Shown here one piece after another: positions 19,815-20,704 of a stretch of 34,735 nucleotides of DNA (its first letter is position 1; every line of letters begins with the position of its first letter). The notes beneath the pieces were generated by a model. It saw only the letters and a list, made by a program, of their open reading frames with translations. It ran no database searches and had not been told where the DNA came from. This DNA comes from a virus: the IMG/VR virus record IMGVR_UViG_3300047678_000541, positions 1-34,735 of that record. One strand, given 5' to 3'. Made by a program: the position numbers and the translations under genes.

Positions 19815-19822
19815 TTATAATT

Positions 19823-19851
19823 AAAAAGGAGAGTTAGCTCTCCTTTTTTTT
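19823..19851 (+). terminator. Rho-independent terminator after TROVE gene
   Basis: GGAGAG-TTAG-CTCTCC stem followed by eight T. It lies between the TROVE stop and the HNH gene, so it probably came with the insertion. Confidence 0.9.
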
Positions 19852-19857
19852 GACATT

Positions 19858-20637
19858 ATGTTTTTATTTGATACTTATAATAAAAATGTTATGGTGAAAG
19901 TAAAGTGTCAAGATGCTGAATGTAATAATGAGTTTCATACATATCCATATTTAATTAAACAAGGATTTGGAAAGTTTTGCTCAAAAAAATGTAGATTTAA
20001 AAACAAAAGAAAGTCTAAAGAACATATTAAACAAGGAAATAATAGAAGAGCTAAAGAATGGAGATTAAGAAATAAAGATTATAGCAAAAGCAAGCAAATA
20101 AAAGACTATAAAAAATCTTGGTATGAAAATAATAAAGAAAGAATTTTAGAAGAAAGAAAAAAGAAATACGATTCTAATCCAGGAAAGGCTAAAGAATATA
20201 AAAAAAACAATAAAGAAAAAATATCTGCATATAATAAAATATATTCTAAAACAGATATAGCTAAAGCATCTAGTAGACATTCACAACATAGAAGAAGGGC
20301 GATAGAAAAAAATACAGATATTGATAGTGTCTGGATTAAAAACCAAAAAAAACTAGCCACACTATGTCCTTTTTGTGATTGTAAAATGGAAATTGACGGA
20401 AGAAAAATGAAAGGGAAAACTTTAGATCATTTAATTGTTATAAATAAAGGTGGATTGCATAAAAAGAATAATGTTCTTTATATATGTAGAGAATGTAATT
20501 TATCTAGGCCAAAAAATAATTCCGATATTAAATATATCTATGAACTTATTTACGCTAAAGATATTTATTTAAAAGGTAAAGAAAAAGAAATATTAGTAAA
20601 TGCCTTAGCAGATTTTTTACAAACAAACAGTATTTGA
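19858..20637 (+). CDS. HNH homing endonuclease inserted at the TROVE gene end
   Basis: 259 residues. An N-terminal zinc finger (CQDAEC...FCSKKC, residues 17-44) is followed by a long Lys/Tyr-rich DNA-binding region (~45-150). A C-terminal HNH domain follows: CPFCDCKM, then TLDHLIVINKGG with the catalytic DH, N in KKNNVLYICREC, and NLSRPKNN. The four cysteines bind a structural zinc. The gene lies between the intact TROVE 3' end and a displaced second copy of that end, which identifies it as a mobile element. It ends in TGA and overlaps the displaced fragment by 8 bases. The AT-richness and Lys codons exceed those of the TROVE gene. Confidence 0.88.
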   Translation: MFLFDTYNKNVMVKVKCQDAECNNEFHTYPYLIKQGFGKFCSKKCRFKNKRKSKEHIKQGNNRRAKEWRLRNKDYSKSKQIKDYKKSWYENNKERILEERKKKYDSNPGKAKEYKKNNKEKISAYNKIYSKTDIAKASSRHSQHRRRAIEKNTDIDSVWIKNQKKLATLCPFCDCKMEIDGRKMKGKTLDHLIVINKGGLHKKNNVLYICRECNLSRPKNNSDIKYIYELIYAKDIYLKGKEKEILVNALADFLQTNSI

Positions 20638-20704
20638 TATCATGTCAAAACTTGAAGAAGATAGAAATGCCTTGGTTAACACAATCGAAGCTGTAGAGCT
20701 TTAA
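20630..20704 (+). pseudogene. Displaced 3' end of the TROVE gene
   Basis: Reads VFDIMSKLEEDRNALVNTIE then AVEL-stop, matching the TROVE C-terminus VFDILKKLEQDRNALVNAIE then EVEL-stop in 19 of 24 positions, with many synonymous differences. It is the original 3' end, cut off when the HNH gene inserted. The intact gene now uses a 3' end brought by, or co-converted with, the element. It has an ATG (20642) but is probably not a functional gene. Confidence 0.85.

Follow-up and report, generated by a model that had tools for sequence, protein, structure and literature searches.

Comparison with a collinear relative shows that a segment carrying an HNH endonuclease gene is inserted at the 3′ end of a TROVE/Ro60-like gene in a virus record of 34,735 bases (a single metagenomic contig, hereafter the window), and that the TROVE reading frame stays intact. 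The last 24 codons of TROVE are found twice, once in frame within the gene and once stranded behind the HNH gene (table 1). On balance, it is probable that the HNH gene entered TROVE together with the 3′ end of a related phage, and that the recipient's own end was displaced as a relic. The TROVE/HNH locus would then be a phage variant of an event known so far, to the best of our knowledge, only from fungal mitochondria.

Table 1. Features of the TROVE/HNH locus, with positions in the window
Feature	Position	Strand	Evidence
TROVE/Ro60-like RNA-binding protein, intact, 557 aa	18141..19814	+	PF05731, phrog_850, structure model
In-frame TROVE end, 24 codons, proposed imported	19740..19811	+	Relatives' DNA, family profile
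Terminator-like hairpin and T run, directly after in-frame end	19823..19848	+	Fold z -4.19; pattern match reported on minus strand
HNH endonuclease gene, 259 aa, stop codon inside stranded TROVE end	19858..20637	+	phrog_8660, 4h9d alignment, junction
Stranded second TROVE end, 24 codons, proposed native	20630..20701	+	Profile 44.1 bits; E 6.2e-6
Terminator-like hairpin after stranded end	20780..20807	+	Hairpin/terminator pattern
Next gene	20836..21186	+	Homologue directly after TROVE in L010, 30% identity
MUG113/T5orf172 (GIY-YIG-like) gene	21226..21558	+	Collinear in L010 (60%) and L095 (50%)

The TROVE gene and its two ends

The TROVE protein matched the Pfam TROVE family (PF05731) with an E value of 1.5e-16 (61.1 bits vs. 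a cut-off of 23) and PHROG 850 (phrog_850) with an E value of 6.5e-38. Its structure model (pLDDT 87.5) had its best match among Ro60 structures at E 1.0e-16, and all 13 matches at E <= 0.001 in the structure search were Ro/TROVE entries, among them Ro60 from Thermus phage phiLo. Both the domain and the modeled Ro60 fold place this product among the predicted TROVE/Ro60 proteins. An earlier, sequence-only reading of this DNA had stated that the TROVE gene was left intact, which agrees with the 557-aa frame and the Ro60 structure matches.

The in-frame end (VFDILKKLEQDRNALVNAIEEVEL, 19740–19811) is followed by the TROVE stop codon (TAA, 19812–19814), and the stranded end (VFDIMSKLEEDRNALVNTIEAVEL, 20630–20701) is likewise closed by TAA (20702–20704). 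The sequence-only reading had described a recurrence of the last 24 TROVE codons after the HNH gene with 19 of 24 residues identical and many synonymous changes, and this was confirmed: only 46 of 72 bases are the same, 15 codons are synonymously changed and 4 are identical, the base differences are distributed as 6/2/18 over the three codon positions, and the longest exact match is 6 bases.

Searching the genome for the TROVE end recovered the stranded copy at E 6.2e-6. The homology of this copy to the TROVE ends of relatives, on which the earlier reading depended, was further established with a profile of 67 other TROVE protein ends from which the window was left out. The stranded copy scored 44.1 bits and its match begins at V (V534) of the VFDI motif, and the best non-TROVE match in any locus after it reached 7.8 bits. 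The 67 proteins are those which remained after removal of L038 (frame changed after the match), L089 (cut off) and duplicates, and L087 is represented by its C-terminal half only. With the same profile, a stranded second end was detected in none of 87 other loci. Judging from these matches, both copies are genuine TROVE ends.

The two copies share order and orientation, as would be expected if the gene end had been duplicated locally and had then diverged in place. Such an origin is hardly credible: in a relic that is no longer translated, residues should decay at the same pace as silent sites, and in 200,000 simulation trials with 26 random substitutions, 19 residues were never kept (maximum 15). 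The conservation of residues despite near-saturated silent change means, as far as can be judged from the sequences, that the two ends evolved apart in two separate functional genes and were joined recently.

We also scanned the 2,504 ORFs of 158 sequences (the window and 157 loci, several of which overlap) for gene ends left stranded elsewhere. The scan yielded 105 rows of repeats and paralogues, among which only the row of the window had a stop directly behind and almost no open frame ahead. Degenerate DNA patterns for both TROVE ends had no match in the viral contigs.

Insertion and origin of the two ends

The closest TROVE-bearing relative, L010 (only about 54% identical), contains TROVE with the same neighbours on both sides and has neither the HNH gene nor a second TROVE end. 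The order upstream of TROVE that is common to the window and L010 comprises a ClpB-like gene, the 15361 ORF, two minus-strand genes, and a conserved stretch with 78% DNA identity. Directly after TROVE, L010 has homologues of 20836 (30%), 21226 (60%), 21593 (79%), and 21937 (48%). As L010 is collinear and has no HNH gene or second end, the pattern of the HNH segment is that of an insertion. L018 and L068 are partly collinear with the window as well, and the window, L010, L018, and L068 group together in a tree of the TROVE body (support 86/83, not full). L093 and L095 are closer by their ClpB-like protein (79–80%), yet neither gave a match to TROVE; in L095, the genes flanking TROVE in the window adjoin each other. 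No true sister phage with TROVE and without the insert was found, and the genome contigs searched contained three TROVE loci, none of which is close.

The left boundary of the imported DNA is not visible, and co-conversion of flanks is known in T4 homing, as outlined in PMC2988022; a donor could thus have replaced most or all of the TROVE body together with the end, terminator, and HNH gene, with only the stranded end being native. The grouping of the TROVE body with L010, L018, and L068 and the identity of the upstream stretch to L010 speak against this possibility, which we regard as quite improbable. An assembly chimera of two strains might also be considered for a single metagenomic contig, whose junction pattern matched no second contig in a collection that may omit near records. 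It is very improbable here: both flanks are collinear with L010, and joining by overlap at the two copies is unlikely because no exact match exceeds 6 bases.

Comparison with an HNH-free relative, which the sequence-only reading had in view, favours the stranded end in the DNA of L010 (37 bases of 72 vs. 33 for the in-frame end) and is tied in its protein (11 residues each). For the in-frame and stranded ends, respectively, L018 has 38 and 43 identical bases and L068 has 36 and 40, with 12 and 12 and 9 and 10 identical residues. Codon resampling (bootstrap) over the three collinear relatives favoured the stranded end at 0.92. Among all 67 relatives, 40 are nearer the stranded end and 20 nearer the in-frame end in DNA; in protein, 30 are nearer the stranded and 13 nearer the in-frame end, with 24 ties. 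The family profile score was also higher for the stranded end (53.8 vs. 45.4 bits). Leu5 and Ala18 of the in-frame end were present in none of the 67 relatives, whereas Met5 of the stranded end occurs in 59 and Thr18 in 11. These data make it likely that the stranded end is native and the in-frame end imported, all relatives compared being distant. Compared with the TROVE body, the in-frame end has atypical codon usage (0.8% of the windows along the body score lower), but in a control with 65 of the 67 other TROVE proteins, the last 24 codons were more atypical than the in-frame end in 15%, and codon usage was rejected as proof of foreign origin, being weak.

The reverse polarity, in which TROVE kept its original end and terminator (the in-frame ones) and the HNH gene was joined downstream with a foreign TROVE end, would suit the tied protein identities, the weak codon usage evidence, and the many endonuclease genes that simply sit downstream of TROVE in relatives. 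This scenario is rather unlikely. The family profile and the DNA of L010, L018, and L068 both point to the stranded end as the native one, and the donor would have had to carry an HNH gene immediately ahead of a TROVE end, in other words a TROVE gene that was already interrupted.

With regard to the earlier claim that the endonuclease and a foreign end entered together, the insertion was corroborated by L010, and import of the in-frame end is moderately supported by DNA and profile. An old terminator had also been said to follow the displaced copy. A terminator-like hairpin is indeed present there, but the comparison with L010 does not bear on its being the old one, as the spacer after TROVE in L010 aligns with neither spacer.

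The HNH gene and its proposed entry into TROVE

The 259-aa HNH protein matched phrog_8660 (E 3.3e-9) and had no match in Pfam or NCBIfam. In an alignment with 4h9d (E 0.0025), the CxxC, DH, N, and CxEC residues line up, giving an HNH catalytic motif with metal and zinc residues which is typical of a putative HNH endonuclease. Its structure model was unusable (pLDDT 43.7). Relatives were limited to three weak matches in 40 records and one weak locus in the viral contigs, and the phage collection held no near relative of the gene.

The C-terminus of the HNH protein was considered as a third TROVE end and rejected (protein P-value 0.08, profile support absent). A group I intron was also rejected, as none was among the Rfam matches in the window or in positions 4000–6400 of L087. 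In addition, an exact 12-base repeat is located at 19781–19792 within the in-frame TROVE end and at 20592–20603 near the 3′ end of the HNH gene. It has the same codon phase in both places and occurs nowhere else in the window (simulation P-value about 0.015); when the region is extended, 18 of 21 bases are identical (P-value 0.004). The repeat is perhaps the joint used when the cassette arose, or perhaps a product of chance.

In the event that we propose, a free-standing HNH endonuclease gene would have entered TROVE of the recipient phage at the VFDI codons by break repair. A related phage would have supplied a full alternative 3′ end (24 codons, stop, and terminator), which would complete the recipient's reading frame, and the recipient's own last 24 codons would have been displaced about 0.8 kb downstream as a non-functional relic. 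By analogy with T4 homing as outlined in PMC2988022, the endonuclease would cut the uninterrupted allele and repair would copy the donor. We infer cleavage at VFDI, this repair route, and homing activity of the HNH protein. The sequence-only reading had placed the break exactly at VFDI: by the profile, homology of the stranded copy does start at the V of this motif, which would imply that a break was repaired there and that the cut site is probably nearby, the cut itself being our inference. The HNH frame stops inside the stranded copy, which suggests that the right joint was formed non-homologously within the 3′ flank of the HNH gene itself.

Almost all silent bases of the relic are missing from the in-frame end, as is the ATG of the Met that follows VFDI and is close to invariant (present in 59 of 67). 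Given that the two ends differ at this Met and at nearly every synonymous position, the rebuilt TROVE gene may escape the nuclease and thus be self-protected. A tentative generalization, which we consider possible but doubtful as a whole, is that phage HNH cassettes swap the 3′ end of a conserved gene for a pre-recoded, cleavage-resistant one, such that the gene works and the allele is immune, and that they would correspond, in phages, to the foreign-end elements of fungal mitochondria, here in a Ro gene.

Related elements and the wider TROVE context

In Glomus mitochondrial atp6, atp9, cox2, and nad3, as described in PMC3630166, the gene core is followed by a foreign in-frame end, an endonuclease ORF, and the displaced native end. 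Allomyces macrogynus atp6 (cited in PMC3630166) has a foreign end and a displaced native end in the same order. The TROVE locus shows the order of the Allomyces atp6 type, with an in-frame second end, an endonuclease ORF, and a displaced end, and its two ends share 64% DNA and 79% protein identity, compared with 63.5% and 91% for those of Glomus atp6 (PMC3630166). In Endoconidiophora, cob and atp6 are also described as having C-terminal duplications accompanied by endonuclease ORFs (PMC6279837). Unlike the fungal elements as portrayed in these accounts, which have LAGLIDADG or GIY-YIG enzymes, the TROVE locus belongs to a phage and has an HNH enzyme. It also differs in having a complete stop and terminator between the end and the endonuclease, and its direction is read from far-diverged relatives rather than from a close uninterrupted sister.

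Free-standing HNH or GIY-YIG genes are located beside or inside genes of T4-like phages, such as mob/seg and the split nrdA of Aeh1, according to the outline in PMC2988022. As in these phages, the endonuclease frame at the TROVE locus overlaps the neighbouring gene and a conserved gene is the target; in contrast to T4-like split genes kept as two pieces, TROVE is made whole by the added end. Phage endonuclease genes are described at borders of exchange as well (PMC10448857). No phage case of a re-supplied gene end was found in a literature search whose coverage was thin for subscription journals.

A closer parallel to the T4-like split-gene type than TROVE of the window is L087 (4001–6253), in which an HNH ORF (4459–5304) splits TROVE near codon 156. 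The second TROVE half has its own ATG, and its ORF (start 5273) overlaps the HNH end. With this split gene, TROVE genes appear as repeated endonuclease targets. Eight of 19 scanned downstream neighbours of TROVE, which were hand-picked and not random, match homing endonuclease families (L011, L014, L015, L018, L034, and L041) or HNH families (L002 and L033), and phrog_3339 was matched by 6 of 133 ORFs downstream of TROVE.

The window also has, at 27897–28733 and 31152–31880 (+), two more genes of endonuclease type (GIY-YIG; NUMOD3), which are mutually related (30%); the 158-sequence scan revealed no stranded gene end beside them. In L096 (894–2366; the L010 contig in reverse orientation), a homologue of window ORF 28771–29115 has its start overlapped by a GIY-YIG-type gene, and a second, inverted copy of this homologue, 49% identical, is located nearby. 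It is possible that the inverted copy is another endonuclease-linked foreign duplicate.

Upstream of TROVE, the motif GTGGNAAN6GRGWTACTTC occurs three times (17184–17206, 17567–17589, and 17976–17998, +; one copy with one mismatch). With up to two mismatches allowed, 36 of the 67 distinct TROVE genes (that of the window among them) have it on their own strand within 900 bases upstream and 0 of 67 have it on the opposite strand; elsewhere it was detected once in 858,484 strand-bases. The 17976 copy is part of a hairpin element with a terminator at its end, and a tRNA T-arm-like stretch follows the 17567 copy; the Rfam search of the window gave no match in this region. The motif is a candidate for a family of phage Y RNAs to which the TROVE protein would bind, and may matter more than the endonuclease insertion. 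A tRNA with a CUA anticodon was also observed at 29979–30052 (+), although TAG ends only 3 of the 46 ORFs listed.

If the proposed entry of the HNH gene with a related phage's 3′ end is true, the locus would be a phage example of how a selfish endonuclease can insert itself well within a coding sequence and leave the gene unbroken. The relic would then be a dated record of the recipient's original sequence, and hence of the likely cut site, which would make the target directly testable.
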